From Bacillus gobiensis (GTDB lineage: Bacteria; Bacillota; Bacilli; Bacillales; Bacillaceae): a stretch of DNA of 64,000 nt. Location: contig NZ_CP012600.1 of assembly GCF_001278705.1 (NCBI RefSeq), positions 2,791,917 to 2,855,916 on the forward strand, given 5' to 3'. This document shows, piece by piece, positions 6,871 through 55,819 of the stretch (the stretch's first letter is position 1; each line of letters begins with the position of its first letter). The notes beneath the pieces were generated by a model. It saw nothing but the letters and a program-made list of their open reading frames with translations, ran no database searches and was not told where the DNA came from. The position numbers and the translations under genes are program-made.

Positions 6871-7065
6871 AAAGTTCACACCTTTATATATATAACGTTC
6901 ATTATAAAAATTATTTAAAAAATATATAGGAGAAAATCTTAAAGTTTTTAAGACCACTATTCTCTCCCTATATTCTATAAAATTACATAATTTGGAAAAA
7001 TGAATACTTTTCGCTAAATCCATTGCAGTATCTTTTACCTTATCTAACTCAAGTATTTGAGCCAT
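6871..7065 (-). other. 65-codon open stretch, possible gene remnant
   Basis: In frame with the MFS gene below, an ATG at 7065 opens a 65-codon stretch starting MAQILELDKVKDTAMDLAKS that is hydrophilic and helical at first. It begins only five bases after the stop of the fusion gene. A weak CAGGG precedes it. It may be the start of a gene whose rest was deleted. No family is recognised. Confidence 0.25.
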
Positions 7066-7070
7066 CGATT

Positions 7071-7295
7071 TTATACCCTGTTATTATGCATTTTACGATA
7101 TAAAGTCATTCGAGAAATACCAGCCTTCTCAGCAGCATCTGTACGACTCAACCCTTGATCTATAAGATACAAGGCATACTTAACCTTTTCTTCATCGGTT
7201 TTCGGTCTTCCTGGATACTTTCCTCGCTTCCTTGCAGCCAGAATCCCTTCTTTCGTCCGTTCAGAAGTTAAGTCTCTCTCAAATTGAGCAATACC
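7071..7295 (-). mobile_element. Resolvase tail forming the transporter's C-terminus
   Basis: The last 74 codons of the transporter gene match the end of a Tn3-type resolvase or DNA invertase, from the FERDL helix to the HTH. The junction is at about 7295. No inverted repeat or target duplication was found by eye at the joint. Confidence 0.65.
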
Positions 7296-8642: not shown

Positions 8643-8846
8643 CCGTATTTCCTCCCTCTTTCCAAATTAAAAAGCTTATAACATAAATTCCACCTTTACA
8701 TACAATTCAAACTTTCCAATTGATAGTATAGTAAAATAAAATTTTGATTAATCCTACGTGCTTCATATTGACTAAACGCAAAAGCAATGTCACATTAGTA
8801 CATGGAACGAATTTGAACATTTGAAGAGAGTCTGGAGGGTACATAT

Positions 8847-9701
8847 ATGAAACTAATAGCAATTGATTTGGATGGAACGTTGCTGAATGCGCAAAGCGTG
8901 ATATCTGAGGAAAACAAGAGAGCGATAAAAAAGGCTTTGGATTCAGATTGTATAGTGGCTATCAGTACAGGTAGGGCTACCTTTGACGTAAAGTCACTGC
9001 TTGGTGATCTGGATATTCCGATCATTGCAGCAAATGGCGGAACTGTCCATGACTTTCAATACGAGCCTCTAAGCCATCTCACATTGGATAAAACAGTCGC
9101 CGCAGAAGTTGCGGACTATCTTACCAATGAAAATATTTATTTTGAAGTTTATACGGAGGATGCCCTTCTATCCCCTTTTGACGGAGAAGAAAAGCTGAAG
9201 GCTGAGCTTGATATTGTACAGTCGGCAAATCCGGACGAGGATTATGAAACCCTTTGGCAAGGAGCGCTCACTCAGTTTAAGCAATTTGGCATTAAGCCTG
9301 TGCCAGACATTCATGAGATTTTCAGAAGTAATGAAAACGTCTATAAGCTGTTATGCTTTTCCTTCGATAGTGAGAAATTGCTGAAAGCAAGAACAATTCT
9401 TGAGGAAAATTCAGCACTCAGCATCACTTCATCAGGCAAACACATTCTCGAGATTTTGCCAAAAGAATCCGGAAAAGGGAGAGCAGTCAAGCTGATAGCG
9501 GAAAAATATCAAATTCCGAAAGAAAATATTTATGCAATTGGAGACAGTCCGAATGACATTTCCATGTTTAAGGAAGCGGACAATCGAATTGCCATGGCCA
9601 ATGCCATGGACGAATTAAAAGAAATGAGCACCTATGTGACAAAAAGCAATGTCGAAAATGGTGTAGCCTACTTTATTGAAAACGTTTTGCTAAAAAAGTA
9701 A
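8847..9701 (+). CDS. Cof-type HAD-IIB phosphatase
   Basis: A 284-residue haloacid-dehalogenase-superfamily phosphatase of the Cof/IIB class. Motif I is DLDGTLLN at residues 7-14, motif II ISTGRA near 42, the conserved lysine lies around residue 210, and motif IV is GDSPNDISMF near 231. These enzymes hydrolyse sugar phosphates, flavin precursors or cofactor phosphates in the cytoplasm; the cap domain sets specificity and cannot be read here. GGAGGG precedes the start. It is divergent from the sugar transporter and 34 bp upstream of the exporter gene. Confidence 0.85.
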   Translation: MKLIAIDLDGTLLNAQSVISEENKRAIKKALDSDCIVAISTGRATFDVKSLLGDLDIPIIAANGGTVHDFQYEPLSHLTLDKTVAAEVADYLTNENIYFEVYTEDALLSPFDGEEKLKAELDIVQSANPDEDYETLWQGALTQFKQFGIKPVPDIHEIFRSNENVYKLLCFSFDSEKLLKARTILEENSALSITSSGKHILEILPKESGKGRAVKLIAEKYQIPKENIYAIGDSPNDISMFKEADNRIAMANAMDELKEMSTYVTKSNVENGVAYFIENVLLKK

Positions 9702-9735
9702 AAAATTTATCGTTGGCTAAGAAAGAAGGATAACG

Positions 9736-10668
9736 GTGAAAAAGTCAACTATCTATATCGTCTTGTTTTTCATAATGATGATCTGGGGATTTAATGTAAC
9801 AGCCTTGAAGCTTCTGGTAGCTGAATTTTCTCCTGTGACCATAACGTCCTTTCGTATACTGACAGCAAGCATCGTCGTGATGGCTGTTTTATTTTCACTG
9901 AAAAAAGTTCGCTGGCTGACAAAAAAAGAAACGGGCTACGTGCTTGCAGGAAGTCTTTTGAACGTGGTTGCCCACCATTATTTTTTGTCGGTTGGGATGA
10001 AGTTTACTTCAGTATCAAATGGGGGTCTGATTCTCGGTTTAGGACCCATATTAACCTCCATAATGGCGATTATTTTTCTTAAAAATAAGATTTCGCTGCT
10101 CAAGGGACTCGGAATCATTTCAGGGTTTTCAGGTGTCTTTTTTATTATTGCGGAAGGTAGCGGAGTGACTAGCGTTTCCTTCGGGGACGTGTATGTTTTT
10201 CTTTCGATCTCCTCACAAGCGCTAAGCTTTATACTGATTAAAAAAGCAGCGAAAACGCTCGATCCTAGATTGATGACAGGATATATGTTGTTATTTGGCT
10301 CAGTTATCCTTTTTTTCATCAGTTTAGTGACAGAACCTGGCGGGTTAACAACATTAAGCAAAGGCTCATGGTTGGGCTGGCTTGTTTTTTTAGGCTCTGC
10401 CGTTTTCGCCACAGCGATCGGACATATGGCCTATAACAGTGCTCTCGGAAAAATCGGGGCACCAGAAGCAGCGATTTTCTTAAACTTAAATCCATTTTTC
10501 GCCCTCATTGGGGCTGTGCTTTTTGTAGGGGAAAAGATTCTTTTGACACAAATCATCGGGTTTGCCTTTATATTAGCTGGAGTCTTCCTCGGTTCGGGCG
10601 CATTCGAAGAAAAATATAAGCTGTCCAAACACAAGCGAATGGCAAGTGGAGTAAAAAGCGGTCAGTGA
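9736..10668 (+). CDS. EamA/DMT-family transporter
   Basis: A 310-residue drug/metabolite transporter with ten predicted helices in two EamA repeats. It opens with IMMIWGFNVTALKLLV, and a second repeat starts near residue 150 (FGDVYVFLSISSQALSFILI). GTG start after AAGAAGGATAAC. It follows the HAD gene closely and both may be one transcript, ended by the hairpin overlapping its stop codon. Substrate unknown. Confidence 0.8.
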   Translation: MKKSTIYIVLFFIMMIWGFNVTALKLLVAEFSPVTITSFRILTASIVVMAVLFSLKKVRWLTKKETGYVLAGSLLNVVAHHYFLSVGMKFTSVSNGGLILGLGPILTSIMAIIFLKNKISLLKGLGIISGFSGVFFIIAEGSGVTSVSFGDVYVFLSISSQALSFILIKKAAKTLDPRLMTGYMLLFGSVILFFISLVTEPGGLTTLSKGSWLGWLVFLGSAVFATAIGHMAYNSALGKIGAPEAAIFLNLNPFFALIGAVLFVGEKILLTQIIGFAFILAGVFLGSGAFEEKYKLSKHKRMASGVKSGQ

Positions 10669-12151: not shown

Positions 12152-13516
12152 TTACATCATAAAATACTGGAATCTTGAACCAATATCAAGAACTGATATG
12201 TTGGCGGTTACTCCGGAATCAGGAAAGTTCTTATTCGTGATAACCAGCTTTCCTGATTCAATGGAAAACGTTGGTCCGTAATACATTGCGGCGTTGTGAT
12301 TTTGGTGAAGTGATAGATTAGTGACTGTCCCTTTATCATCTCCCACATTTCGATATACGAGCAGCGTATACGCATAATTATAATTAGCTGCCTGTAAGTA
12401 GACAGATACGATGGAGGATACTCCGTTTGTAACGGATATTGTAGGGTTCGCGCCTGTCATTAATTGGAATGCGTTCTGGTATCTTTTTCTTTGGACATTG
12501 ATAGTTCGGTCAGGATTGATTTGCACTCTATCACATAAGACCAGGTTTCCGAGCTGTGATTGATCGTCAAGCGCCGATACGGAACCAATCAAATAGACAG
12601 GACTATCATTTTTAGATACCATTTCCACTTTATACCCGGAATCGCCGTGATCAAAACTCTCAATCGAAATCGTTCCGTAGAAGGTTGCGGGTTCATTACC
12701 TTCGTTTTTAATAATTGGAGTTTCGCCTCTTGTCCAAATGTTGAATTCCAATGGGGCGTTAAACGGGATACAGTCCTTTCCGATTTTGATTTTAGGTTCT
12801 GTTTCGCCAGCGCCTTGATTAATCGTGCAGCTTTTGATGCCTGTGCCGTGAAAGCTTTCCACATTATTTGATTGCTTATATTCGACAGCTGTTTTGCAAG
12901 AGGCTCTGAAGTCACAGTAGGATGCAATGCAGCCTTCGGTGAATTCTTGTAAAATCCCATTATGGAACATGATACCCACCTGATTTAACTCGAATTGGCA
13001 AAAATCGACACGAAACCCGTTGACTCCGGCCACTTCGATTCCGATTGAATTCTCATTTCCGCGAAAACCAACGCCAAACAGCATTCCGCCAGTCATCATT
13101 CCCCAGCCGCCATGTACTTTGATTGCCGGTTTTCCAGCTGGAAGGTTTTCGCCGCTAATCACGGTGCGGCGGAATCCTTTTCCGAAGATAAGAGGCTTTT
13201 TATCGCCGCTGTCTATCAGAATTGTATCTGAGATCACATAAGCATTGTTTTCGTTGAGGTGAATAGGAACCCATCCTGAATATTCTGATGCTTTAATCAA
13301 TCGTCGAAGTCTTTTCGTATCATCTGCTTCCCCATCTTTCCGGGGAAAATCCGAACTCTTTACGCCGTCAATATTCGAATAGGCCTGGGCCGTTTCGGTT
13401 TCGAACATTCCGGGAATCCCCATTGTACCTGCCGACAGTGCCAGTGCACCTATGCCTGCTCCCCCAGCTTTTAAGAAGTCACGTCTGTTGTATTGCTTAC
13501 TCTTTTGATTAGTCAT
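12152..13516 (-). CDS. Tat-exported beta-helix-like protein, paralogue 3
   Basis: A 454-residue protein with a twin-arginine signal: YNRRDFLKAGG near residue 9, a hydrophobic stretch, then an A-x-A-like cleavage region near TETAQA. The mature part starts with SSDFPRKDGEADDTKRLRRL, a pattern common at the start of pectate-lyase-superfamily right-handed beta-helix proteins, followed by glycine- and asparagine-rich repeats. By eye it is about 85-90% identical over its whole length to the protein at 54455-55819, and less so to that at 52994-54322. AGGAGG precedes ATG 13516; earlier in-frame starts lack one. Enzyme activity is not evident; binding or hydrolysis of a polysaccharide is a guess. Confidence 0.75.
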   Translation of the reverse strand: MTNQKSKQYNRRDFLKAGGAGIGALALSAGTMGIPGMFETETAQAYSNIDGVKSSDFPRKDGEADDTKRLRRLIKASEYSGWVPIHLNENNAYVISDTILIDSGDKKPLIFGKGFRRTVISGENLPAGKPAIKVHGGWGMMTGGMLFGVGFRGNENSIGIEVAGVNGFRVDFCQFELNQVGIMFHNGILQEFTEGCIASYCDFRASCKTAVEYKQSNNVESFHGTGIKSCTINQGAGETEPKIKIGKDCIPFNAPLEFNIWTRGETPIIKNEGNEPATFYGTISIESFDHGDSGYKVEMVSKNDSPVYLIGSVSALDDQSQLGNLVLCDRVQINPDRTINVQRKRYQNAFQLMTGANPTISVTNGVSSIVSVYLQAANYNYAYTLLVYRNVGDDKGTVTNLSLHQNHNAAMYYGPTFSIESGKLVITNKNFPDSGVTANISVLDIGSRFQYFMM

Positions 13517-13743
13517 AATAAAGCCTCCTAGTGTGATAATTGAATGATATTGAGCAATTCCATTTACGCGTCTTGTGCTTTGATTCGGTTCTAATGACCC
13601 TATTATTTTTTTCGGCAAATACAATATAATGTACAAAATAAATATAAATTTTTTATGCCATTTAATATAGTATTTTTTCCCATGTTTATCATGTCAGCAC
13701 AAAAGGGATTCAACACACATTATTTTGTATAAGGGGTTTTAAT

Positions 13744-44248: not shown

Positions 44249-44936
44249 AATTGCCTCCCATAATCATCGTTGCACTATTCATTGTAACAAATCTCTACAA
44301 AACACGCCGAATCGAGAATGATCCCCAAGAATTCCGCCGTCCTTATATCATCGCCACTGAAGCACCTAAAAAACCTCTCTAGCATGACATACTTCTTTCC
44401 TACTATGTAACCGCTTTATACCGAATGCTGTATCAGATTAACTAGGCTGTTGATTAAAATTTTTTTCTGCCTAAAAACTCTTGGTAAAAGCGGTTTTTAT
44501 TTTATTTTATTAACCTTCTATTCCCGCGTGTTCAAGTCAATCAGTACATAAGTGACTCGGCGGAAAGACCTACCAAACATTTCATAAATAATTCTAATTT
44601 TTACTTAAAATTGCTTCAATTCTTTGCTTTTTGTAACAATTGAAATAACAATTTAATAAATTTCAACGTTTTTTTATACATTTGACCCCTATATTCATAG
44701 ATGAATCATTACGCAAGGATCTAATGACCTATCCTATTCGACCCGCTTAATCCGCTGTGCCTAGCGGGTTAAGGCTATAATCCTATAATTAGAACAACTG
44801 ATTGACAACCCCTGAAAGCTGATGTAATCTGACCTCAACAGCAATTCGAAACCGAATATTATGTAGAACCGTGGGATGAAATGCCATTTTTTAGCAAACG
44901 ATCTCTTTGTATCTCTTTGTAAAGGAGGCTGAAATC
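44249..44936. promoter_or_regulatory. 688-bp leader region of the lasso cluster
   Basis: No gene is seen. From left to right it holds the second copy of the 42-bp repeat (44637), a hairpin TTAATCCGC/GCGGGTTAA (44747-44772), a promoter candidate with TTGACA (44802-44807), 17 bp, then TAATCT (44825-44830), and a tandem duplication of ATCTCTTTGT (44901-44920) just before the ribosome binding site. The -35 is perfect; the -10 is weak, suggesting an activator. Confidence 0.4.
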
Positions 44937-46172
44937 TTGATTGATAAAACCGGTAAGAATCTAGTATTTCTTCTCTGTGTTCCGAGAAGCGGCAGCTCTC
45001 TTTCTACTATTTTGCTGCAAAATCACAGTAAAGTGCTTGCAACCCAAGAAATGTGGTATTTAATGAGCCTCTATGATTTAAAGCGACCGGAAAATCGTCC
45101 GTACGGAGGGAAGAGAATTATCAGCCGTTTTTTTAATGGAATGGTGACTGATAATGCCTTTGTCGATTCAGCCCGAGCGTTTGCCCTTGAGACTTATAAC
45201 GGTCTGCTTCATTCAAGTAATGCAAGCCTGATCGTTGATAAATCCCCGCGGTATTACTACATTTTAGAATTCATTGACCGGCTTTTTCCAGAGTCTAAGA
45301 GAATCTGGCTGATCCGGAACCCCCTTAGTATTCTGGCTTCCTATAAAAAAGTAAACCAGAATAAGAAGGCGTTTTCACTGATCGAAGAACTTAGTAAACC
45401 TACGTTTAATATAAAAATAGTTGATTTAACGGTCGGATTTTTTCGCTATTATGATTATTTTTCAACTGATCACCCGCAGGCCTTTCGACTTTCCTATGAA
45501 CGGCTCGTCACCAATCCGAAATATGAGGTTGAAAAGCTATGTGAATTTTTGAACGTGTCCTACGAGGAAGGAATGGAGATATACGGAGACCAGCTGGACA
45601 GCTCTAAAGGGAGAATGTTTGCCAGCATGGGGGTCGGTGATCCAAATGTATATGAGCATTCGAAAGCTCACACAGATTCGATTGAAATCTGGAAGGACCT
45701 TTTAACGAAGGAAGAAATCGAAGCCTACTGCCGCCTGCTTGGTGCCAATGTATTTCGTGAATTGGGCTATGAAAAAGAGCTTCAGGAGGCTGAAAAGATC
45801 ACAGGCGCCCGCTTTGAACAAGATCCTGATCATGAGTTTATCCAAAAGGTAAGGAAGCAATTTTTGAATAATTCTGAAACTGAATGGGAAGAGGCATATC
45901 ATATGCAAGCAGTGCAGTCGGAAGATTTTTCAAATGTAACAACAAACGAAGAACATCCTTCCGATTCACGGCAGGAGCTTCTTAATGAAATCCAGCAGAT
46001 GAATATTACCATTAAAACACTAGAGCAAAGACTGGCAACGAACTTGACAGAAAAAACAAAGCTTATGCAGGAACTTCAATCAGTAAGAACTCGATTCAAT
46101 CGCTTTAAGTCGCTTATCCCTTTCAGTGGATTTTTGACAAACCTGGCCGAGCAAAGGGGTCAGAAAAAATGA
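44937..46172 (+). CDS. Sulfotransferase of the lasso-peptide cluster
   Basis: A 411-residue PAPS-dependent sulfotransferase. The 5'-phosphosulfate loop is CVPRSGSSLSTILLQNHSKV at residues 14-33; the 3'-phosphate region RLSYERLVTNPKYEVEKL lies near 184. The last 60 residues are a predicted coiled coil (LLNEIQQMNITIKTLEQRLA). The TTG at 44937 is the start, eight bases after AAAGGAGG. Its stop overlaps the cyclase start (ATGA), so it is translationally coupled to lasso synthesis and probably sulfates the peptide, perhaps on Ser, Thr or an attached sugar. It could alternatively act on a surface polymer. Confidence 0.8.
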   Translation: MIDKTGKNLVFLLCVPRSGSSLSTILLQNHSKVLATQEMWYLMSLYDLKRPENRPYGGKRIISRFFNGMVTDNAFVDSARAFALETYNGLLHSSNASLIVDKSPRYYYILEFIDRLFPESKRIWLIRNPLSILASYKKVNQNKKAFSLIEELSKPTFNIKIVDLTVGFFRYYDYFSTDHPQAFRLSYERLVTNPKYEVEKLCEFLNVSYEEGMEIYGDQLDSSKGRMFASMGVGDPNVYEHSKAHTDSIEIWKDLLTKEEIEAYCRLLGANVFRELGYEKELQEAEKITGARFEQDPDHEFIQKVRKQFLNNSETEWEEAYHMQAVQSEDFSNVTTNEEHPSDSRQELLNEIQQMNITIKTLEQRLATNLTEKTKLMQELQSVRTRFNRFKSLIPFSGFLTNLAEQRGQKK

Positions 46173-48139
46173 GTGCGATCCTGGGTCTCGTCCATTTTAA
46201 CCAAGAACCTGTCTCACCATTCCAAAGCTCTGAGTTCATGACCCGGCTTCTGCCATTCCCTGCCGATGTTACACAAACGTGGCACGATCATAACGTTTTT
46301 CTCGGCTGCCATGCCCAGTGGATTACACCTGAATCGATCGAGGAACGCTTGCCTTATCACGATGAGGAAAGAGAGCTAGTTATCACCTCTGACTCGATAT
46401 TGGATAACCGCGAGGAATTGTTTGAAAAGCTGCAGATAAAAGCTAGTGACCAGCCGCTTATTACAGACAGCAAGCTAATTTTGCTTGCTTACGCAAAATG
46501 GGGCGAGAATTCGCCTAAGCATCTGCTCGGAGATTTTGCGTACATCATCTGGGACATAAAAAAGAAGAAAATTTTCGGCGCGCGCGATATGCTCGGATGC
46601 CGGACGCTTCACTATTATAAAGATCTAAACCGTTTTGCCTTTTGTACCTTGATCGAGCCGCTCTTTTCTCTCGACTACATTCAAAGAGAATGGAACAAGG
46701 AATGGCTTGCAGAGTTTTTAGCCTTGTCAAGGATGTATGAATCAACTGACGTTCAATCTACGCTTTACAAGGACATCAGGCAGATCCCTCCTGCCCACAG
46801 CATGACTGTAACCACGGAGGGCCTTCAGTTGAAAAGATACGGAAGACTTGCGGATACAGAGCCTTTACGGCTGAAAGACCCGCGCGATTATGAAGAGGCT
46901 TTCCGGGATGTCTTTGGAGAAGCAGTACGAGCAAGAACAAGAACCTATAAAAATGTCGCTTCCCATTTAAGCGGCGGTCTGGACTCTGGTTCGGTTGCGA
47001 GCTTTGCTTCCAAGCACCTGAGAACAGAAGGAAAATCGCTGTACACCTACAGCTACATTCCGCCGGAGGATTTTGTTGATTGGACGCCGAAACGGTCGTT
47101 TGCTGACGAACGTCCCTACATTCGATCAACGGTCAACCATGTCGGAAATATTAAAGACCATTACCTTGATTTTAAAGGAAAAAGCCCCTTCTCCGAGGTA
47201 GACGTATGGCTTGATTTATTAGAAATGCCGTATAAATATTTTGAAGCAACGTTTTGGACGAGAGGGTGCTACGAACATGCCCAAGCCGATGGCGCGGGAA
47301 TTTTGCTCACAGGATCACGTGGCAATTATACGATTTCATGGGGGCCCGCCCTTGATTATTACGTCCAGCTATTGAAAAAAGGGAAATGGTATCAGCTGCA
47401 AAAAGAAATCAAGCATTTTTCTGAAATCAAAGGTATTGGCCGAAAACGAATCCTGTCCATCCTATTGAATCGAGCCGCAGAGTCCTTTAACTGGAAAAAG
47501 CAATCTGGCGAGGAGCTCTCGATTATTTCGCCGGAGCTTGCAAAACAAACGAATATTTATGAAAAAATTTCACAAAGAAACAGCTTTGCATTGAACGGGC
47601 CGAAGGATTCCATCGAGGCAAGAATGTACCAAATGGAGAGCCTTGAGATTCCATCAAAAAACGGCAATTTGGCAACAAAGCTTTCGTTAGCCTATGGCGT
47701 GTGGGAGCGCGATCCTACATGCGACCCGAGAGTCGTTCGATTTTGCTTGTCCGTACCATTTGAAGAATATGTTCAAAACGGCGTCGATCGCGCCCTCATC
47801 AGACGGGCAACGAAAGGATATTTGCCAGATAAGGTTCGATTAAATCATACATCAAGAGGCATACAGGCTTCGGATTGGATTCACCGGACTGCGCCTCATT
47901 GGGAAAGTTTTCTTAATGAACTGAATCATATGGTAAAAGATCCGGAAGCAGCTGAATACATCAGCATCCCTTTTATTCAAACGGTTCTTTCAAAACTGGA
48001 TAAAAACCCTCCGGTAGAAGAGGCATTTAATAAAGAAATCCGATTTGCGATGAGAAGCTTGATCTTCTATCGCTTTCTAAAACGATCCAGTAAAGGAGGT
48101 GATACATATGAAAAAGACTTGGAACGAGCCTACTCTTGA
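46169..48139 (+). CDS. Lasso peptide cyclase (asparagine-synthetase-like)
   Basis: A 656-residue homologue of asparagine synthetase B used to close the lasso ring by adenylating the side-chain carboxylate. The N-terminal amidotransferase-like domain has no Cys2, as expected when ammonia is not the donor. The ATP site is SGGLDSG at residues 268-274 (PP-loop motif). VRFCLSVPFEEYVQNGVDRA and LIRRATKGYLPDKVRLN are the C-terminal synthetase signatures. It overlaps the sulfotransferase by 4 bp upstream and the precursor gene by 32 bp downstream. Confidence 0.9.
   Translation: MSAILGLVHFNQEPVSPFQSSEFMTRLLPFPADVTQTWHDHNVFLGCHAQWITPESIEERLPYHDEERELVITSDSILDNREELFEKLQIKASDQPLITDSKLILLAYAKWGENSPKHLLGDFAYIIWDIKKKKIFGARDMLGCRTLHYYKDLNRFAFCTLIEPLFSLDYIQREWNKEWLAEFLALSRMYESTDVQSTLYKDIRQIPPAHSMTVTTEGLQLKRYGRLADTEPLRLKDPRDYEEAFRDVFGEAVRARTRTYKNVASHLSGGLDSGSVASFASKHLRTEGKSLYTYSYIPPEDFVDWTPKRSFADERPYIRSTVNHVGNIKDHYLDFKGKSPFSEVDVWLDLLEMPYKYFEATFWTRGCYEHAQADGAGILLTGSRGNYTISWGPALDYYVQLLKKGKWYQLQKEIKHFSEIKGIGRKRILSILLNRAAESFNWKKQSGEELSIISPELAKQTNIYEKISQRNSFALNGPKDSIEARMYQMESLEIPSKNGNLATKLSLAYGVWERDPTCDPRVVRFCLSVPFEEYVQNGVDRALIRRATKGYLPDKVRLNHTSRGIQASDWIHRTAPHWESFLNELNHMVKDPEAAEYISIPFIQTVLSKLDKNPPVEEAFNKEIRFAMRSLIFYRFLKRSSKGGDTYEKDLERAYS
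48091..48102 (+). promoter_or_regulatory. Extended ribosome binding site of the lasso precursor
   Basis: AAAGGAGGTGAT, six bases before the precursor ATG, is fully complementary to the standard 3' end of Bacillus 16S rRNA (ATCACCTCCTTT). It lies inside the cyclase coding sequence. It should give very high translation of the precursor. Confidence 0.8.
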
Positions 48140-48233
48140 AGTATTGAACATGAATCAAACAATGGCTGGTAAAGGTACTACTTGCATTGACATTGTCTCT
48201 GACGATGACTTAGACATCACCAACCCTAGCTAA
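48108..48233 (+). CDS. Lasso peptide precursor
   Basis: A 41-residue precursor. The leader (MKKTWNEPTLEVLNMNQTM, residues 1-19) has the Y/W-x-x-P-x-L recognition pattern bound by the RRE protein, and Thr18 at position -2 as lasso proteases require. The 22-residue core starts AGKGTTCID: nine residues, so an Ala1-Asp9 isopeptide ring is predicted. The tail is acidic (Asp13-15, Asp17), and the chain ends Asn-Pro-Ser. Ser22 is the expected phosphorylation site of the paeninodin-type kinase. Cys7 lies within the ring and has no partner in the core. The gene starts inside the cyclase gene. Confidence 0.92.
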   Translation: MKKTWNEPTLEVLNMNQTMAGKGTTCIDIVSDDDLDITNPS

Positions 48234-48257
48234 TCGGTAAGAAAAACTTTTACAATC

Positions 48258-48291
48258 AGCCCCTTATACTAAGAACGTATGGGGGCTTTTT
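48258..48291 (+). terminator. Attenuator-like hairpin between precursor and kinase
   Basis: AGCCCCTTATAC and GTATGGGGGCT pair (one bulge) around a 7-base loop, followed by TTTTT. Partial termination here would give much more precursor mRNA than mRNA for the downstream enzymes. Confidence 0.65.
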
Positions 48292-48314
48292 CAAGCATAG
48301 GGGTGAATGAAATA

Positions 48315-49241
48315 ATGATCGATAATCCTACTAAACCCTGTTATGAGGCGTTTGGTTTACGTATAAATAGTGATATCGCATTGCCGGAGCTTATGCAGGC
48401 AGCACCAGACAGCAAAATAGATGTCGAGATACGCTATAAGGATCTTTCACAAGAATGGAACTCCCATTCTCTTGGCCAAAAGCAGGTTGCGGTCGCAAAA
48501 AAAGGCTACTTTATATTCAAGGTGCCGGGGAACGCTATCTATCAAGTAATAGACGGAAAGCACATTTTCATTTCTCCATTGCCGGGATCAACAGAAGATA
48601 AAATCCGTTTGTACATTTTGGGTTCTTGTATGGGCGCGCTTCTTCTGCAGAACAGCATTCTTCCCTTACACGGGAGCGCCATTGTTCTGAACGGAAAAGC
48701 CTATGCGTTCGTAGGTGAGTCAGGCGCAGGAAAATCGACCCTCTCTTCCGTTTTTATGAAGAAGGGGTACAAGCTATTGAGTGATGATTTGATAGCTCTT
48801 TCCTTTAAAGAAGGTGTGCCGTATGTTATTCCCGCCTATCCTCAGCAAAAACTCTGGGAAAACAGCATTCTAGAATTCTCATTGAATACAGAGGACTATA
48901 AGCCTCTCGCTGATCGGGAAACAAAATATGCCATTCCTAGAGATGCCGAATTCTGTAAAGAGCTCACACCGCTTACAGGCATTTTCGAGCTTTCAGTCCA
49001 AACAGATAACGAGGATGTGATCCTTGAGCAAGTAAAGCCTTTGGAGAAAATCCAGCTGCTATTCCGGCATACGTTCCGCCAATTTCTTATCCAAAAATTT
49101 GATTTAGTGGAATGGCATTTCAATACATCCGCACAGATTGCGGGGCACACGGCAATCTATCATCTGAAGCGGCCGCAGCAAGGGTTTACCGCGCAGCTGC
49201 TTGCCGAACACGTTGTTGAAGAAATTTCAAGGGAGGTATAA
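48315..49241 (+). CDS. Lasso peptide C-terminal serine kinase (HPr-kinase-like)
   Basis: A 308-residue homologue of the C-terminal domain of HPr kinase, like PadeK and PsmK of the paeninodin and pseudomycoidin clusters, which phosphorylate the last serine of the precursor. His119 (LPLHGSAIVL) precedes the P-loop GESGAGKST at 134-142; LLSDDLIAL at 154-162 holds the acidic metal residues. ATG 48315 is used (AGGGGTG upstream); an ATG at 48279 falls inside the terminator hairpin and has no site. Followed after 3 bp by the RRE gene. Confidence 0.88.
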   Translation: MIDNPTKPCYEAFGLRINSDIALPELMQAAPDSKIDVEIRYKDLSQEWNSHSLGQKQVAVAKKGYFIFKVPGNAIYQVIDGKHIFISPLPGSTEDKIRLYILGSCMGALLLQNSILPLHGSAIVLNGKAYAFVGESGAGKSTLSSVFMKKGYKLLSDDLIALSFKEGVPYVIPAYPQQKLWENSILEFSLNTEDYKPLADRETKYAIPRDAEFCKELTPLTGIFELSVQTDNEDVILEQVKPLEKIQLLFRHTFRQFLIQKFDLVEWHFNTSAQIAGHTAIYHLKRPQQGFTAQLLAEHVVEEISREV

Positions 49242-49244
49242 CTC

Positions 49245-49547
49245 ATGGATAAAAAGATCACTCCTGATTCAGTGGTTGCGCAAAACGAAGGATATATCGC
49301 CAGCAATATGGATGGAGAAAAAGTAATGATGAGCATTAAAAACAGCAAGTATTATAATCTTGGAGAAATTGGCGGCGCGATCTGGGATGCTGCTGTCAGG
49401 CCGATCAAAGTCAGTGATTTGGTCACACACCTCCAGTCCGAATATGACGTCAACCGCGAGCAATGCGAAAGGCAGGTCATCGCCTTTTTGGAAAACCTGC
49501 AGAAGGAAGGCTTGATTCAGTCCGGCAAAGGATCAGAAGTGATGTAG
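49245..49547 (+). CDS. PqqD-like RiPP recognition element (lasso B1)
   Basis: A 100-residue stand-alone RRE of the PqqD family. It has the three-strand part (EGYIASNMDGEKVMMSI, KYYNLGEIGGAIWD) and the three-helix winged part (VSDLVTHLQSEYDVNREQCE, VIAFLENLQKEGLI). It binds the leader peptide of the precursor and presents it to the B2 protease. AGGGAGG precedes the ATG. Spacing of 3 bp from the kinase and 1 bp to B2 shows one operon. Confidence 0.9.
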   Translation: MDKKITPDSVVAQNEGYIASNMDGEKVMMSIKNSKYYNLGEIGGAIWDAAVRPIKVSDLVTHLQSEYDVNREQCERQVIAFLENLQKEGLIQSGKGSEVM

Positions 49548-49548
49548 C

Positions 49549-50028
49549 ATGGGAAAGCTAAAAAAATTTTTAGCTCTCAATCGCGCAAAAAAATTACTGC
49601 TCGTCGAAGCAGTTGTCGCATTGGCCAAGGGAAGAGTTATGGTTTGGCTCCCTTTTTCAAAGGTCGCGCCCTCACTTGGGTTTCATATGAAGGAAACCCC
49701 GCTCGCTGCGAATGCGGAGGAAGCAAGAAAAGTGAGACAGGTTGCCAGGGCGATCGCCTTGATGCACCGCCATACCCCTTGGCAGACCCACTGCTTGGCA
49801 AGAGCCTTTGCGGGCATGAATATGCTGCAGCGCCGAGGAATTGAAAGCACCCTTTACCTTGGGACTGGCAAGGATGAAAACGGAAAAATGATAGCCCACG
49901 CCTGGCTTAGGAGTGGAGATATTTACGTAACCGGTGACGATGTGATGGATCAGTTTACTGTGGTCGCAACCTATGCGAAAGCATGGAAGACTCAGGAAGA
50001 GGAGATTGTTCAACATGAAAAAGGATAA
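49549..50028 (+). CDS. Lasso leader peptidase (transglutaminase-like, B2)
   Basis: A 159-residue cysteine protease of the lasso B2 family (transglutaminase-like fold, PF13471). The catalytic Cys82 is in WQTHCLARAFAGM and His117 in MIAHAWLRSGDIYVTG, with the following Asp124 or Asp130 as the third residue. It cuts the precursor after residue 19 so that Ala1 is free to form the ring. It starts one base after the RRE gene stop, and its 3' end overlaps the nucleotidyltransferase start by 14 bp. Confidence 0.9.
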   Translation: MGKLKKFLALNRAKKLLLVEAVVALAKGRVMVWLPFSKVAPSLGFHMKETPLAANAEEARKVRQVARAIALMHRHTPWQTHCLARAFAGMNMLQRRGIESTLYLGTGKDENGKMIAHAWLRSGDIYVTGDDVMDQFTVVATYAKAWKTQEEEIVQHEKG

Positions 50029-51217
50029 GTATGCAATCGATGTCGATAGCTTTCCGAATGAGCTGCAGCTTTTGCTGTTGTTTTTAAAGCTGGACAATTT
50101 TCCGAAAGAAAATGAAAAAATGCTGGAAGAGCATCAGCATTTATTTGCTGCAGCTAACTGGGATCATTTTATCAAGCTTGCCGACCATCATCATCTTTAT
50201 CCTGTCCTTTACCATAAGCTAAAATCTGTAAAGGAAAAGTGGGTTCCTTCCATCGTCGTTCGCGCGCTGCAAATGAGATATCAAAACAATACGCTAAAAA
50301 TTCTCTACCTTTGCGGAGAAATGGACCGTGTCGCTAAAGCCTTTCATGAACACAACATCAGATCCCTGCATTTAAAAGGACCGATCCTTGCTCATGAATT
50401 GTATGGTGATATTTCGATGCGAAAATCTAAGGATTTAGACATTCTTGTGCCGAAGGAGGATCTGGAAAGAACAGAACAGATGCTTTTTGAGCTCGGCTAT
50501 GAAAAGGATGAGGCTAATACCGTACTGAACGAAGTGAAATGGCGGGAGCATCATTTTGAATATCACCATAAGGAACGGAAGACATCCGTTGAAATTCACT
50601 GGAGGCTATCCCCGTTTCCTGCAAAAGAGCCTTCGTTCGAAGATTTGTGGGCGCGGAAAAATGAGTCGAAGCTGACAAGCGTTCCAGTGTACTATCCGGG
50701 TGATAAGGATTTATTTTTATATCTCATATCCCACGGAGCTCGTCACGGATGGTTTCGTTTGAAATGGCTCTATGATATACATAGATGCGCCGATCAGATG
50801 CAAAGCCCGGACAAGCTGTTGAGAAAAAATGATTTTAAGAACATGATCCTCGTCGGGCAAGCCTTGATCTTGGCTCATCAGCTATTTCAAACGCCTTTAT
50901 CCGCGAATATGATGAAGCAGCTAAAATTAGGCTCTTATAAATTGGCCCATCAAGCACTGATTTATATTACGTCGATTCTTGTGTTAACTCCGCTTCCCGA
51001 GCATATTCGCACAAAGCATGAGCGGTATCTGTTTGCTTTGAATGGTACAATTTCGCAAAAGTATTTGGCCTTATTAATCGTATTGTTTTATCCAAGTCCA
51101 AGAGATGAAGCTCTCATTAAATTACCGAAATACTTGCACGGCTTGTACTTTGTGCTCCGTCCCTTTTTAGTCGTTGTACGAAAGCTAAGAAAAAATAAAG
51201 CTTTTGAGGGAGTGTAG
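50015..51217 (+). CDS. Nucleotidyltransferase-family tailoring enzyme of the lasso cluster
   Basis: A 400-residue protein of the NTP_transf_5 type (nucleotidyltransferase fold). Its core is IRSLHLKGPILAHELYGDIS followed by SKDLDILVP, where D-x-D binds metal, and then VEIHWRLSPFP. In the pseudomycoidin cluster a protein of this type (PsmN) is reported to modify the phosphorylated serine by attaching hexose; the same step is plausible here. ATG 50015 has AGGAAGAGGAG upstream; an earlier in-frame start at 49973 lacks one. It overlaps B2 and ends 3 bp before the exporter gene. Confidence 0.82.
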   Translation: MKKDKYAIDVDSFPNELQLLLLFLKLDNFPKENEKMLEEHQHLFAAANWDHFIKLADHHHLYPVLYHKLKSVKEKWVPSIVVRALQMRYQNNTLKILYLCGEMDRVAKAFHEHNIRSLHLKGPILAHELYGDISMRKSKDLDILVPKEDLERTEQMLFELGYEKDEANTVLNEVKWREHHFEYHHKERKTSVEIHWRLSPFPAKEPSFEDLWARKNESKLTSVPVYYPGDKDLFLYLISHGARHGWFRLKWLYDIHRCADQMQSPDKLLRKNDFKNMILVGQALILAHQLFQTPLSANMMKQLKLGSYKLAHQALIYITSILVLTPLPEHIRTKHERYLFALNGTISQKYLALLIVLFYPSPRDEALIKLPKYLHGLYFVLRPFLVVVRKLRKNKAFEGV

Positions 51218-51220
51218 ATA

Positions 51221-52969
51221 ATGAAGGAATTGTTTCATTTTGCTAAAAGCCTGCACTCTCACACAGGCAGCGTTCTTTATTTGAACCTGCTCGGTATGGT
51301 CGCCGTCGGCTTTTTAGAGGGAATCGGCATTTTATTAATCATTCCGATGCTGAGTCTGATCGGCGTCTTGGATGCAAATGGAACCATTTTTTCATGGGTG
51401 TCCGGCTTTTTCCCAGAGGAAGCATTAAACTTGCCAATCGTTTTAGGTTTGTTTCTCTTTATTATTATTGCAACTGGGTTGTTTCAGAGGCAGCAATCAA
51501 TATGGAATGCAAAAATCAAGCAAGGCTTCGTGCTCAATTTGCGCCTGCAAACCTATCGGGATCTCATCCAAGCCAATTGGGGATTTTTCTTAAAAAAAAG
51601 AAAATCCGAGTTGAGCAACCTGATGACGACCGAACTGGCCCGGGTCAGTTCTGGAACGAATCTATTTTTACAGCTGATCGCATCTGTCATTTTCACACTC
51701 ATTCAGTTAGCGATCGCCTTTTGGCTGTCATTTGAAATGACCGCCTTTGTTCTGTGCTCGTGCGCCATTCTTGCTCTTTTTTCAAGAAGGCTTGTAAAGA
51801 AGGCCAATCTGCTGGGAAAACGCACGACTCAATATGCCCATGAATACATGGGGCAATTGACAGATGATCTAAACGGGATCAAAGATATTAAAAGCAACCA
51901 GCTTGAAGAAAAGCAATTCAACCGATTTCGCGATCTTTGCCGGCGGTTGGAGAAAAATACGATACATTTTGCCGTGTTAAGCGCAAACTCTACGTTTCTG
52001 TACCGCATATCCGCAGGGGCCGTCATCGCCGCATTCGTCTTTCTGTCCGTTCAAGTTCTTAAGCTTCCGTCAGCAAGTATTCTATTAATCATCGTCATCT
52101 TTGCCAGACTATGGCCGCAGCTGGCCAAAATCCAGTCGAGTCTGGAAAATATGGGCTCTCTTCTGCCAGCGTTCCAAAGCATCATCGAACTGCAAAAGGA
52201 ATGCGCAGAGGCGAAGCAAAGCTTTCTTTTATCAAAGGGAAACCCGATTCATCTTACCCGTTCGATTGAATTCAGACATGTTGATTTCCGTTACAATCCT
52301 GCAATTGAAGAATACACGCTTCAGGATATCAACGTAACTATACCGGCCAACAAAATGACAGCGATCGCCGGTCAATCAGGTGCGGGAAAAAGCACGTTTA
52401 TCGATCTTTTAATGGGGCTGAACCAACCGGAAAAAGGCGAGATTCGAGTGGATGAGGAAGTAATGACGGAAGAAATGATGAGCCGGCTGAAGCCGTCAAT
52501 TAGCTATGTTCCGCAGGACCCATTTTTATTTAACGACACGATTCGGAACAATCTGCTTCTCGTTAAACCGGAGGCTGCAGAGGAAGAACTATGGGAGGCA
52601 TTGCGTGCCGCTTCCGCGAATTTTGTCGAAGCCCTGCCGGATCAACTGGACACACGTCTCGGAGACAGAGGTGTGCGGCTGTCAGGCGGAGAACGTCAGA
52701 GAATCGTTCTTGCCCGAGCACTACTTAGAAAACCGTCCCTATTGATTTTAGATGAAGCAACAAGCGCAATTGATACCGAGAATGAAAAAATCATATTAGA
52801 GTCCTTACATCGATTAAAAGAACAAGTGACTATTGTCGTCGTCGCTCATCGGCTGTCTGCAATTCAAGCAGCTGATCAGGTCATTGTCATTGAAAAAGGA
52901 AACATTCAAACAGCCAATACGAAAGCAAACGAGAACATTCATGCATTATTTACAGCTAAAAATCAATAA
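51221..52969 (+). CDS. Lasso peptide ABC exporter (lasso D)
   Basis: A 582-residue half-transporter: six membrane helices (residues 1-320), then an ATP-binding domain with Walker A GQSGAGKSTFIDLL, the Q-loop SYVPQDPFLFND, the signature RLSGGERQRIVLARA, Walker B LLILDEATSAID and the H-loop VVAHRLSAIQAAD. It exports the mature peptide and usually gives self-protection, as no other immunity gene is present. AGGGAG precedes the ATG. The 3' end (AAAAATCAATAA) was copied during duplication of the next gene. Confidence 0.92.
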   Translation: MKELFHFAKSLHSHTGSVLYLNLLGMVAVGFLEGIGILLIIPMLSLIGVLDANGTIFSWVSGFFPEEALNLPIVLGLFLFIIIATGLFQRQQSIWNAKIKQGFVLNLRLQTYRDLIQANWGFFLKKRKSELSNLMTTELARVSSGTNLFLQLIASVIFTLIQLAIAFWLSFEMTAFVLCSCAILALFSRRLVKKANLLGKRTTQYAHEYMGQLTDDLNGIKDIKSNQLEEKQFNRFRDLCRRLEKNTIHFAVLSANSTFLYRISAGAVIAAFVFLSVQVLKLPSASILLIIVIFARLWPQLAKIQSSLENMGSLLPAFQSIIELQKECAEAKQSFLLSKGNPIHLTRSIEFRHVDFRYNPAIEEYTLQDINVTIPANKMTAIAGQSGAGKSTFIDLLMGLNQPEKGEIRVDEEVMTEEMMSRLKPSISYVPQDPFLFNDTIRNNLLLVKPEAAEEELWEALRAASANFVEALPDQLDTRLGDRGVRLSGGERQRIVLARALLRKPSLLILDEATSAIDTENEKIILESLHRLKEQVTIVVVAHRLSAIQAADQVIVIEKGNIQTANTKANENIHALFTAKNQ

Positions 52970-54439
52970 ATCATCGTAGCAGGAGGCTTATTCATGAGTA
53001 ATCGATATAACAGACGCGGATTTTTAAAAGCAGGTGGAATTGGCGTAGGTGCACTGGCGGCTGGAACATTGGTATTCCCCGGCAAGTCAGAAGCTGCAAC
53101 CCAGGACGCTTCGAAAATAGAAGAGGTAAAGAGCTCTGATTTCCCCCGGAATGAAGGGGAAACCGATGATACGAAAAGACTTCAACGATTGATTGATGCC
53201 TCGGAAGCAGCAGGCTGGGCTCCTATTCATCTTAATGAAAACAATGCATATGTCATTACAGACACGATTCATATCAACAGCGGCGATACAAAGCCACTTA
53301 TTTCCGGAAAAGGCTTTCGCCGAACCGTGATTAACGGCGAAAAACTTCCCTCAGGTAAACCAGCGATAAAAGTCAGCGGCGGCTCGGGAGTGATGACTGG
53401 CGGAAGGCTGTACGGAATTGGATTTTACGGAAACTCGAATTCAATCGGAGTCGAAATTGCCGGGACAAACGGGTTTCGCATCGACTTTTGCCAGTTCGAG
53501 ATTAACCGGATTGGCATATTGTTTCATAATGAGAGATATAGCGAATTTACAGAGTATAACGTCGCATCTGACTGTGACTTTAGAGGCTCCTGCAATACAG
53601 CAATTGAGTACCGGCAATCAAACGGCGTTGAGAGCTTTCACGGTTCCGGCCTTAAAGGCTGCACGATTAATCAGGGTGCAGAGGAAACAGAGCCTAAAAT
53701 CCGAATCGGTGAAGGCTGTTTCCCATTTAACGCCCCATTGGATTTTAATATTTGGACAAGAAAGACAACACCGATTATTAAAAACGAAGGAAAAGAGCCT
53801 GCGACCTTCCACGGGAACATTTCCATCGAGAGCTTTGGTCAAGGCGATATCCAATATAAAACAGAATTGGTTTCCAAAAACGACAGACCGGTCTATTTTA
53901 TCGGAGCCGCATCAGCGCTTGACGACCAATCACAGCTCGGAAACTTAGTCTTGTGTGAAGGAGTACAAGTAAACCCTGACCGAACCGTCAGCGTTCAAAG
54001 AAAAAACGGCCTGCACGTGTTTGAGTTAACGACAGGCGCTAATCAAACAATTTCTATTCCAAGCGGAATATCTTCCATTATTACCGTATCCTTAAAAGCA
54101 GCAGATTACGAGTATTCCTATACGCTGCTTGCTCATCGCAATGATGGGGAAGATAAAGGCTCAGTCACTAACTTATCGCTTCACCAAAACCATAATGCCG
54201 CTATGTATTACGGCCCAACCTTTTCAGTAGAAACAGGGAAACTAGTCATTACGAATAACAACTTTCCTGCAGACGTTGTCAGTGCCTATGTTTCCGTTCT
54301 TGATATCGGAGCAATATTCTAACACTGCATATTAATTAATGTTGAGAAAACGCCAGCATAATTGATGTCAAACAGAAAATCATAGAGTCCTTAGAACAAG
54401 TCGTGAGAATATTTTACTTAAAATCAATAAATCATCGTA
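52959..54439. repeat. 20-bp direct repeat marking a tandem gene duplication
   Basis: AAAATCAATAAATCATCGTA is identical at 52959-52978 and 54420-54439, in each case just before a Tat beta-helix gene. The first copy includes the last codons and stop of the ABC exporter. The second copy therefore shows that the gene was duplicated together with a piece of the exporter end. Confidence 0.75.
52994..54322 (+). CDS. Tat-exported beta-helix-like protein, paralogue 1
   Basis: A 442-residue protein with a twin-arginine signal (YNRRGFLKAGGIGVGALAAG, cleavage near SEAATQ). The mature part begins SSDFPRNEGETDDTKRLQRL and continues with Gly- and Asn-rich turns (RLYGIGFYGNSNSIGVEIAG, FRIDFCQFEINRIGILF), as in pectate-lyase-superfamily beta-helices. 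AGGAGG lies seven bases before the ATG. It is 24 bp after the lasso exporter. It may belong to the lasso locus, for example as a surface receptor or a wall-polymer enzyme, but no catalytic set is evident. Confidence 0.75.
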   Translation: MSNRYNRRGFLKAGGIGVGALAAGTLVFPGKSEAATQDASKIEEVKSSDFPRNEGETDDTKRLQRLIDASEAAGWAPIHLNENNAYVITDTIHINSGDTKPLISGKGFRRTVINGEKLPSGKPAIKVSGGSGVMTGGRLYGIGFYGNSNSIGVEIAGTNGFRIDFCQFEINRIGILFHNERYSEFTEYNVASDCDFRGSCNTAIEYRQSNGVESFHGSGLKGCTINQGAEETEPKIRIGEGCFPFNAPLDFNIWTRKTTPIIKNEGKEPATFHGNISIESFGQGDIQYKTELVSKNDRPVYFIGAASALDDQSQLGNLVLCEGVQVNPDRTVSVQRKNGLHVFELTTGANQTISIPSGISSIITVSLKAADYEYSYTLLAHRNDGEDKGSVTNLSLHQNHNAAMYYGPTFSVETGKLVITNNNFPADVVSAYVSVLDIGAIF

Positions 54440-54454
54440 CTGGGAGGTACTTTT

Positions 54455-55819
54455 ATGACGAATCAAAAAGAAAATCGATACAACAGACGTGACTTCTTAA
54501 AAGCTGGAGGAGTAGGTGCAGGCGCACTGGCACTATCGGCGGGTGCAATGGGGATTCCCGGAATGTTCGAAACTGAAACGGCCCAAGCCTATTCGAATAT
54601 TGACGGCGTAAAGAGTTCGGATTTTCCTCGGAAAGATGGAGAAACCAATGACACGAAAAGACTTCAGCGATTGATTAATGCATCGGAAAATGAAGGCTGG
54701 ATTCCGATTCATCTTAATGAAAATAAACCGTATGTGATTTCAGATACAATTCTGATAGACAGCGGCGATAAAAAGCCTCTGATCTTCGGAAAAGGATTCC
54801 GCCGCACCGTGATTAACGGCGAAAACCTTCCTGCTGGTAAACCGGCAATCAAAGTACATGGCGGCTGGGGTATGATGACTGGTGGAATGCTGTTTGGCGT
54901 TGGTTTTCACGGAAACGAGAATTCAATCGGAATCGAAATTGCCGGAGTCAATGGGTTTCGTGTCGACTTTTGCCAATTTGAGCTGAACAAGGTGGGTATC
55001 TTGTTTCATAATGAGATCTTACAAGAATTCACGGAAGCATGTACCGCTTCACACTGCGACTTCAGAGGCTCCTGCAAAACAGCTGTCGAGTACAAGCAAT
55101 CAAACAACGTCGAGAGCTTTCACGGCACCGGAATTAGAAGCTGCACGATAAACCAAGGTGCAGAGGAAACAGAGCCTAAAATCAGGATTGGTGAAAACTG
55201 TATTCCGTTTAACGCCCCATTGGAATTCAACATTTGGACAAGAGGTCAAACACCGATTATTAAAAACGACGGGAATGAACCTGCCACCTTTTACGGAACG
55301 ATTTCGATCGAGAACTTTGATCACGGCGATTCCGGATATAAAGTGGAAATGGTATCTAAAAAAGACAGTCCTGTCTATTTGATTGGTGCCGTATCAGCGC
55401 TTGACGATCAATCACAGCTCGGAAACCTGGTCTTATGTGACAGAGTGCAAGTCAATCCTGACCGAACCATCAATGTCCAAACTAAAAAAAGCCAGCACTT
55501 ATTTCAATTAACGACTGGTGCCAATGAGACGATAGCCGTTACAAACGGAGTATCTTCCATTATCACCATCTACTTGCAAGCTGCTGACTACAACTATGCC
55601 TATACGCTGCTTGTATACAGAAATGTCGGAGATGATAAAGGGACAGTCACCAATTTAGCGAATCACAAAAATCACAACGCCGCAATGTATTACGGTCCAA
55701 CGTTTTCAGTGGAATCAGGAAAGCTGGTTATCACGAATAAGAACTTCCCTGAATCCGGTGTCACTGCCAAACTCTCAGTCCTTGATATCGGATCGAGATA
55801 CCAGTATTTTATGGTGTAA
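54455..55819 (+). CDS. Tat-exported beta-helix-like protein, paralogue 2
   Basis: A 454-residue protein with the same signal type (YNRRDFLKAGGVGAGALALS, cleavage near TETAQA) and the same beta-helix-like body. It is about 85-90% identical by eye to the gene at 12152-13516 and clearly less to its tandem neighbour. So it and the distant copy share a more recent ancestor than the two neighbours do, or were homogenised by gene conversion. TGGGAGG precedes the ATG. Confidence 0.75.
   Translation: MTNQKENRYNRRDFLKAGGVGAGALALSAGAMGIPGMFETETAQAYSNIDGVKSSDFPRKDGETNDTKRLQRLINASENEGWIPIHLNENKPYVISDTILIDSGDKKPLIFGKGFRRTVINGENLPAGKPAIKVHGGWGMMTGGMLFGVGFHGNENSIGIEIAGVNGFRVDFCQFELNKVGILFHNEILQEFTEACTASHCDFRGSCKTAVEYKQSNNVESFHGTGIRSCTINQGAEETEPKIRIGENCIPFNAPLEFNIWTRGQTPIIKNDGNEPATFYGTISIENFDHGDSGYKVEMVSKKDSPVYLIGAVSALDDQSQLGNLVLCDRVQVNPDRTINVQTKKSQHLFQLTTGANETIAVTNGVSSIITIYLQAADYNYAYTLLVYRNVGDDKGTVTNLANHKNHNAAMYYGPTFSVESGKLVITNKNFPESGVTAKLSVLDIGSRYQYFMV

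Follow-up and report, generated by a model that had tools for sequence, protein, structure and literature searches.

What does a sulfotransferase do in a lasso-peptide gene cluster that also encodes a kinase and a nucleotidyltransferase? The question is raised by a 64,000-nucleotide stretch of the Bacillus gobiensis genome (hereafter the window; G000 C1:2791917-2855916, within a 4.6 Mb single-contig genome), in which eight consecutive, intact genes at 44937-52969, all on the + strand, make up a paeninodin-family lasso cluster headed by a sulfotransferase (ST) gene. ST genes in lasso clusters have been noted in print since 2014; the literature that we searched states no role for them, and in it we found neither a paper testing a lasso-cluster sulfotransferase nor a sulfated lasso peptide. 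Based on a comparison of the cluster with its relatives, we assign a probability of about three in four to stable sulfonation of this lasso product, predicted to be threaded, in a reaction dependent on 3'-phosphoadenosine-5'-phosphosulfate (PAPS). Linkage to adenosine-5'-phosphosulfate (APS) kinase, co-occurrence with the nucleotidyltransferase (N) and a fixed Ser/Thr at position 12 of the core peptide make this old question directly testable.

The cluster comprises the following features, in window coordinates and in this order:

44921..44928, +, Shine-Dalgarno sequence AAAGGAGG of the ST gene, 8 nt upstream of the TTG start at 44937 (from the sequence)
44937..46172, +, sulfotransferase (ST) of PAPS-dependent type, 411 amino acids (aa), whose C-terminal part is a coiled coil (a long helix by prediction); PF13469, 4.9e-24, 86.2 bits (cut-off 27)
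46169..48139, +, lasso cyclase (C), an asparagine-synthetase-like macrolactam synthase, 656 aa; PF00733 and PF13537, best NCBIfam model NF033535
48108..48233, +, precursor, 41 aa, with leader MKKTWNEPTLEVLNMNQTM and core AGKGTTCIDIVSDDDLDITNPS; NF033524, 51.8 bits (cut-off 27)
48258..48292, +, hairpin resembling a terminator, followed by a T tract, in the gap between precursor and kinase; folding energy -14.8 kcal/mol, z -3.8 relative to shuffled sequences
48315..49241, +, HPr-kinase-like serine kinase (K) from its probable start (longest open reading frame from 48279); weak PF07475 and TIGR04352
49245..49547, +, RRE / PqqD-like leader-binding protein (B1); NF033536, 130.7 bits (cut-off 80)
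49549..50028, +, transglutaminase-like leader peptidase (B2); NF033537, 100 bits (cut-off 33), and PF13471
50015..51217, +, nucleotidyltransferase-like protein (N); PF14907, 1.5e-59, 202.1 bits (cut-off 31.2)
51221..52969, +, ABC exporter (D); PF00005 and PF00664

A preliminary description of this stretch had reported eight tightly packed, partly overlapping genes, and all of them are present, intact and on the + strand, with the precursor, RRE, B2 and N proteins scoring over their family cut-offs. The 4-bp coupling of ST to the cyclase, also reported there, consists of an ATGA shared by the ST stop and the cyclase start (46169-46172). The window cyclase lies under the NF033535 lasso-cyclase cut-off (400.1 bits vs 525), and it is the precursor and the remaining genes that carry the paeninodin-family label; NF033535 is its best model by far, and a cyclase tree of 136 rows, built by a quick method, places the protein among lasso cyclases. 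The kinase is under the cut-offs of both of its models (PF07475, 22 bits vs 33.3; TIGR04352, 34.6 bits vs 200), and in an alignment of 77 kinases its H131, K152, D169 and D170 (numbered from 48279) are each kept in at least 97%; a passage of PMC9266682 reports His-Lys-Asp-Asp residues as catalytic for such kinases. Between the two candidate kinase starts, 48315, preceded by AGGGGTG, is the better one because the ATG at 48279 sits inside the hairpin, which is probably an attenuator that lets the precursor transcript outnumber the remainder of the message. The core has 22 residues, the length given in the preliminary description, with Ala1-Asp9 ring spacing, Cys7, Ser12, Asp15, Asp17 and a C-terminal Ser22, and contains no Tyr; the leader has Thr at its penultimate position. 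Together, the family-model scores and the recurrent gene order put the cluster far beyond chance.

Relatives of the cluster were collected in several samples. A protein search with ST, of which the best 120 of 170 matches were considered, returned named relatives chiefly from Paenibacillus and Cohnella. A scan for ST in one genome per species yielded 94 stretches with 84 relatives, the best 80 of which were kept and represent 78 distinct ST loci. Another set was picked by the RRE protein (NF033536 over cut-off): 167 places were chosen and 129 obtained at full length, and the 11 among these that have no cyclase in the run were excluded, giving 118 loci for the ST and N counts. Locus L150, below cut-off, was excluded. 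Some genomes contribute to both the 78 ST loci and the 129 RRE loci, so the two sets of counts are kept apart. Finally, we sampled 295 genomes of the family that holds the Paenibacillus and Cohnella loci and found ST in 74 of them (in one, G740, as a fragment); coordinates in this family match those of named Paenibacillus contigs, for example at G625 C1:1910008 and L042.

ST goes together with the lasso genes. Every one of the 78 ST loci has the cyclase in its gene run, as the next gene after ST in 77; 75 also have N in the run, and 63 show the order ST-C-K-B1-B2-N-D. Among the 118 RRE-picked loci, 51 have both ST and N, 32 have N alone and 35 have neither, and ST alone occurs in none. As for the three ST loci without N in the run, L045 ends at a contig end, and the two complete clusters, L106 and L042, each have a PF14907 gene at a distance, of about 10 kb and 20 kb respectively. 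This pattern fits an ST that needs the sugar added by N, and it also fits an ST that arose among N-bearing clusters and was retained there. In the window's own genus, ST was found in none of 36 other sampled species and N gave weak matches only (3 of 43), and for these reasons we infer that the window cluster is an import into this lineage. Besides a near-copy, the ST proteins closest to that of the window are 88, 82 and 68% identical among the matches listed.

Some ST loci are tandem clusters (L035, L037, L041, L055, L057, L059, L109 and relatives), with one ST, RRE, B2 and N each, two cyclases and two kinases. Where precursors were found in them, there are two, and the second core (GGPNGVxPDKNGKG...) is without the ST signature described below.

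One pointer to sulfate chemistry is APS kinase, which makes PAPS, the sulfate donor. The family that most commonly flanks the 78 ST clusters is a protein of about 200 residues after the exporter (49 loci), and PF01583 matches at the same places identify it as APS kinase. An APS kinase gene lies within 1 kb in 54 of the 78 ST loci; since tandem clusters extend past the fetched stretch, some loci scored without the gene may have one. In the RRE-picked set, 46 of 51 ST-bearing clusters have the gene within 1 kb, as opposed to 0 of 67 ST-less ones. Across the 295 family genomes, APS kinase was present in 74 of 74 with ST and in 128 of 221 without. Its position could be evaluated in 70 of the 74: in 61 it starts within 13 kb of ST, in 40 of those 61 it is the sole match, and among the 46 ST-bearing genomes with a single APS kinase the near copy is that one in 40. 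Fisher p-values for these genome counts are 1.7e-27 and 4e-15, inflated by their disregard of relatedness. On the tree, adjacency of APS kinase changes 8 times among 54 ST rows (some absences come from incomplete stretches), and the flanking gene occurs in both orientations (42 and 7 loci); both observations speak against mere shared synteny.

Two further cases bear on this link. A rearranged relative in genome G720 (contig C33; L302 2819-11001, and L303) carries a divergent second ST within a run on one strand, in which APS kinase comes first, ST follows after about 20 bases, and K, B1, B2, a fusion of N with the exporter, the cyclase and a precursor come next. The only ST-less loci with APS kinase within 4 kb (at 2.2-2.3 kb) are L251, L252 and L295, which have four similar precursors and group with the ST-bearing L047 on the tree; a search of their genomes for any PF13469 protein found none in all three, and they are likely losses of ST. 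The only APS kinase of the window genome is encoded well away from the window, at G000:C1:1003476, and can provide PAPS from there. That there are three tailoring enzymes, with ST belonging to the pathway, had been proposed in the preliminary description and is supported by the presence of APS kinase near ST-bearing and not ST-less clusters and by the locked gene order; the sulfation step itself is more believable because the APS kinase gene so often stands beside the relatives' clusters. Separately, the genome of L035 and L036 has, about 10 kb from ST, an APS kinase match with internal stop codons (G764 C1:1519751-1520112) that looks like a decayed copy.

A second regularity lies in the core peptides. 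Precursor calling gave no candidate at 15 of 208 loci, one of them (L096) ST-bearing, and 21 candidate strings without a ring register by our fixed rule were left uncounted (about eight real-looking precursors of ST-less loci among them, and two spurious strings from one ST-bearing locus). A fixed splitting rule then gave 70 unique cores from ST-bearing modules, 51 from ST-less clusters and nine from the second module of tandem clusters. Cores of ST-bearing clusters share the signature D9-x-x-[ST]12-x-x-D15-x-D17: all 70 have Ser or Thr at position 12, versus 4 of 51 ST-less cores (all from L251, L252 and L295) and 0 of 9 second-module cores, and Asp15 is found in 70 and Asp17 in 69 of the 70. 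On the cyclase tree, position 12 changes between Thr and Ser 11 times in 60 ST-bearing rows and never to a third residue; position 19, mostly Tyr, is also Thr, Gly, Asp, Val or Trp in these rows. L095 and L103 (a long branch of uncertain place in the case of L103) bear both ST and the signature though they stand among ST-less rows. Cores of the L238 type, which we take to be paeninodin's own, have Gln at position 12. In sequence terms, a fixed Ser/Thr12 matches the expectation for a required hydroxyl; its independent gains are few.

The ST protein itself has the features of a PAPS-dependent enzyme. Its PRSGSS and RNP-S-K stretches and E38 (R17, S20, R127, S135, E38) are invariant in 24 relatives, the PAPS-binding motifs being intact, and E38 aligns with the Glu that we take to be catalytic in tyrosylprotein sulfotransferase. 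In a sequence-profile search the best solved matches were the CurM and olefin-synthase sulfotransferase domains (6e-27 and 4e-24), which sulfate a beta-hydroxyl to prepare an elimination. A structure model of P0001, a protein 98% identical to the window ST, aligned in Foldseek with tyrosylprotein sulfotransferases (best) and with the CurM and olefin-synthase domains, at large root-mean-square deviations. The nearest curated model is NoeE (NF052394, 4e-40), a sugar sulfotransferase that sulfates the fucose of Nod factors; the window ST is 27% identical to NoeE of NGR234 and under the equivalog cut-off of the model (137.6 bits vs 500). All of these enzymes have the sulfotransferase fold and PAPS motifs in common with the lasso ST, which differs in its low identity to NoeE and to the solved sulfotransferases (11-24% for the latter) and in a C-terminal coiled coil of its own.

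These observations suggest the following pathway. B1 would bind the leader, B2 would cut it, and C would close and thread the ring, as is established for paeninodin. K would phosphorylate the C-terminal Ser, a reaction established for paeninodin and pseudomycoidin, and N would add a sugar to the Ser phosphate, as seen in vivo for pseudomycoidin. ST is proposed to transfer sulfate from PAPS to the same peptide, with the PAPS coming from an APS kinase encoded beside the cluster in many relatives and elsewhere, as a single copy, in this genome; D would export the product. Calculated monoisotopic neutral masses are 2231.0264 for the lasso, 2310.9927 with phosphate, 2473.0455 with phosphate and hexose, and 2553.0023 when sulfate is added to these; two phosphates plus hexose would give 2553.0118, since phosphate and sulfate are only 9.5 mDa apart. 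As acceptor we favor, tentatively, the hydroxyl of loop Ser12, three residues after the ring Asp, with the phosphosugar as second choice, because Ser/Thr12 is found in 70 of 70 cores of ST-bearing clusters and because peptide and acyl-chain sulfotransferases are among the closest relatives of solved structure. It is possible, at a similar level of reserve, that ST O-sulfonates loop Ser/Thr12 guided by the acidic D9-x-x-[ST]-x-x-D-x-D signature, using PAPS from the linked APS kinase. If so, the clusters would encode a widespread group of lasso peptides with a loop sulfate and a phosphosugar tail, sulfate would be a further lasso-peptide decoration, and an enzyme that sulfates a small peptide bearing an acidic signature might find use as a tool.

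Several observations weigh against this reading. ST nests inside the distribution of N, and its nearest curated model (below cut-off) is NoeE; both favor a sugar acceptor. The products of ST-bearing lasso clusters are predictions from gene content. Within 1 kb, 24 of the 78 ST loci and the window have no APS kinase, although some of these loci are incomplete. ST and the core signature share ancestry, with 5 changes each on the cyclase tree, and their contrasts number only three that are independent and are not significant (two differ in both traits, in the same direction). The signature is kept in the three ST-less loci L251, L252 and L295, and L303, in G720, has ST but neither D15 nor D17; by our own split, the G720 core HGAGGGFDGTTISAS has 15 residues, with Asp at position 8 and Thr three residues after the ring Asp, and no acidic signature. 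When ST was tested with N on the same tree, ST changed 7 times and N 11, and the independent contrasts were not significant in a test of low power. More generally, relatedness weakens the associations of ST with N, with APS kinase and with core position 12, and the tree-based tests have low power.

The alternative that survives best is that ST sulfates the sugar placed by N on the phosphorylated C-terminal Ser, which would give a sulfated phosphoglycosyl tail; we regard it as doubtful. It would account for the finding of ST only where N is, down to the two complete clusters whose N lies at a distance, and for the kinship with NoeE. In addition, a gene of the UDP-glucose/GDP-mannose dehydrogenase family lies within 4 kb of 37 of 83 N-bearing clusters and 0 of 35 N-less clusters, which ties N to sugar nucleotides; at L106 (18437-21196), a sugar nucleotidyltransferase (PF00483), a dehydrogenase-family gene and N stand in a row. 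Because this family is near many N-bearing and no N-less clusters, the native sugar added by N in such clusters may be a uronic acid. The co-occurrence counts are those that suit retention of ST among N-bearing clusters equally well, and fixed Ser/Thr12 speaks for the peptide. Thus, where the preliminary description had proposed a phosphorylated, glycosylated and possibly sulfated peptide, the place of ST in the pathway stands, while the place of sulfation is unproven, with arguments for both a sugar and a peptide acceptor.

It is unlikely that ST does not act on the lasso peptide at all and instead modifies a neighboring surface glycan or is idle. Some ST-bearing clusters do adjoin sugar-nucleotide and glycan genes, and a product that is predicted from gene content leaves room for such a role. 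However, the lasso cyclase is kept at every ST locus, whereas the commonest flanking family besides APS kinase is found in only 34 of 78; in the window, moreover, ST overlaps the cyclase gene, and none of the flanking open reading frames has a relative beside the 78 ST loci.

Action on another core hydroxyl, such as Tyr/Thr19 beside acidic residues in the manner of tyrosylprotein sulfotransferase, is very unlikely. Among 67 unique cores from clusters with ST and N, 55 have Tyr and 8 have Thr at position 19, and the structure model aligns best with tyrosylprotein sulfotransferases, but the position is Gly, Val or Trp in the other 4 of these cores and Asp in 1 of 3 cores from clusters with ST and no N. 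Tyr as a general acceptor was ruled out, since the window core and 4 others of the 67 contain no Tyr anywhere. Least likely of all is sulfate on Ser/Thr12 as just a leaving group, with dehydroalanine or dehydrobutyrine in the final peptide, a reading prompted by the CurM and olefin-synthase matches, as the cluster shows no separate enzyme for the elimination.

We compared the cluster with the closest published systems. The preliminary description had left open that the gene set might be new, but published accounts already cover it, among others for Paenibacillus polymyxa CR1, and ST is found in a quarter of the sampled family genomes. A passage of a 2014 survey of anaerobes mentions HPr kinase and sulfotransferase in some lasso clusters (PMC4289311). 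According to a passage of a 2021 review citing Zhu 2016, some Firmicutes clusters open with a putative sulfotransferase gene and have a gene for a putative nucleotidyltransferase that separates B2 from the exporter (PMC8498205), and a 2024 paper describes ST and nucleotidyltransferase genes for Paenibacillus sp. APC 4171 and, with reference to Zhu 2016, likewise for P. polymyxa CR1 (PMC11381294). As these passages present them, the Paenibacillus clusters have the same gene set as the window, with ST first, N between B2 and the exporter, and a kinase. The window cluster differs in its host genus, in which the other sampled species have no ST, in sequence (closest fetched relatives 47-61% identical, protein by protein) and in a core without Tyr and with Cys7.

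The comparison with the pseudomycoidin and paeninodin clusters that had been suggested earlier was made on published descriptions. In the pseudomycoidin cluster (psm, Bacillus pseudomycoides) a kinase and a nucleotidyltransferase are also present, and passages of two reviews report one or two hexoses on the phosphorylated C-terminal Ser, needing PsmK and PsmN, for product made in E. coli (PMC8498205, PMC9266682). Unlike the window cluster, it has no sulfotransferase named in those descriptions. By place and annotation, N would be the counterpart of PsmN as described in the reviews. Paeninodin (pade, Paenibacillus dendritiformis) has in common with the window the NF033524 precursor family, the Ala1-Asp9 ring spacing and the kinase acting on the terminal Ser; N and ST are extra genes of some other clusters, as a passage of the review puts it (PMC8498205). 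Linear ribosomally synthesized and post-translationally modified peptides whose kinase, NTP transferase and exporter are of the same types, often beside paeninodin-type clusters, are described in parts of PMC13381572, the main text of which has no word starting with 'sulfo'.

Three related proteins are encoded elsewhere in the window, at 52994-54322 (+), 54455-55819 (+) and 12152-13636 (-). The two downstream of the exporter (52994 and 54455) have twin-arginine signals and no Pfam enzyme domain; a good ribosome-binding site serves the first, 24 bases past the exporter, and no sequence match to a twin-arginine protein of this pair was found in the PDB. We considered them as cluster members; with the first as query, no relative was found in any of the 78 ST loci, and they are for this reason probably not part of the pathway. 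At other ST loci, a protein of about 980 residues abuts ST directly upstream (L035 at about 7041-9989, L074 and relatives). Its family occurs in 16 of the 78 loci, and it has a weak match to the beta-galactosidase family PF02449 (31.4 bits, cut-off 21) together with a chitobiase C-terminal domain.

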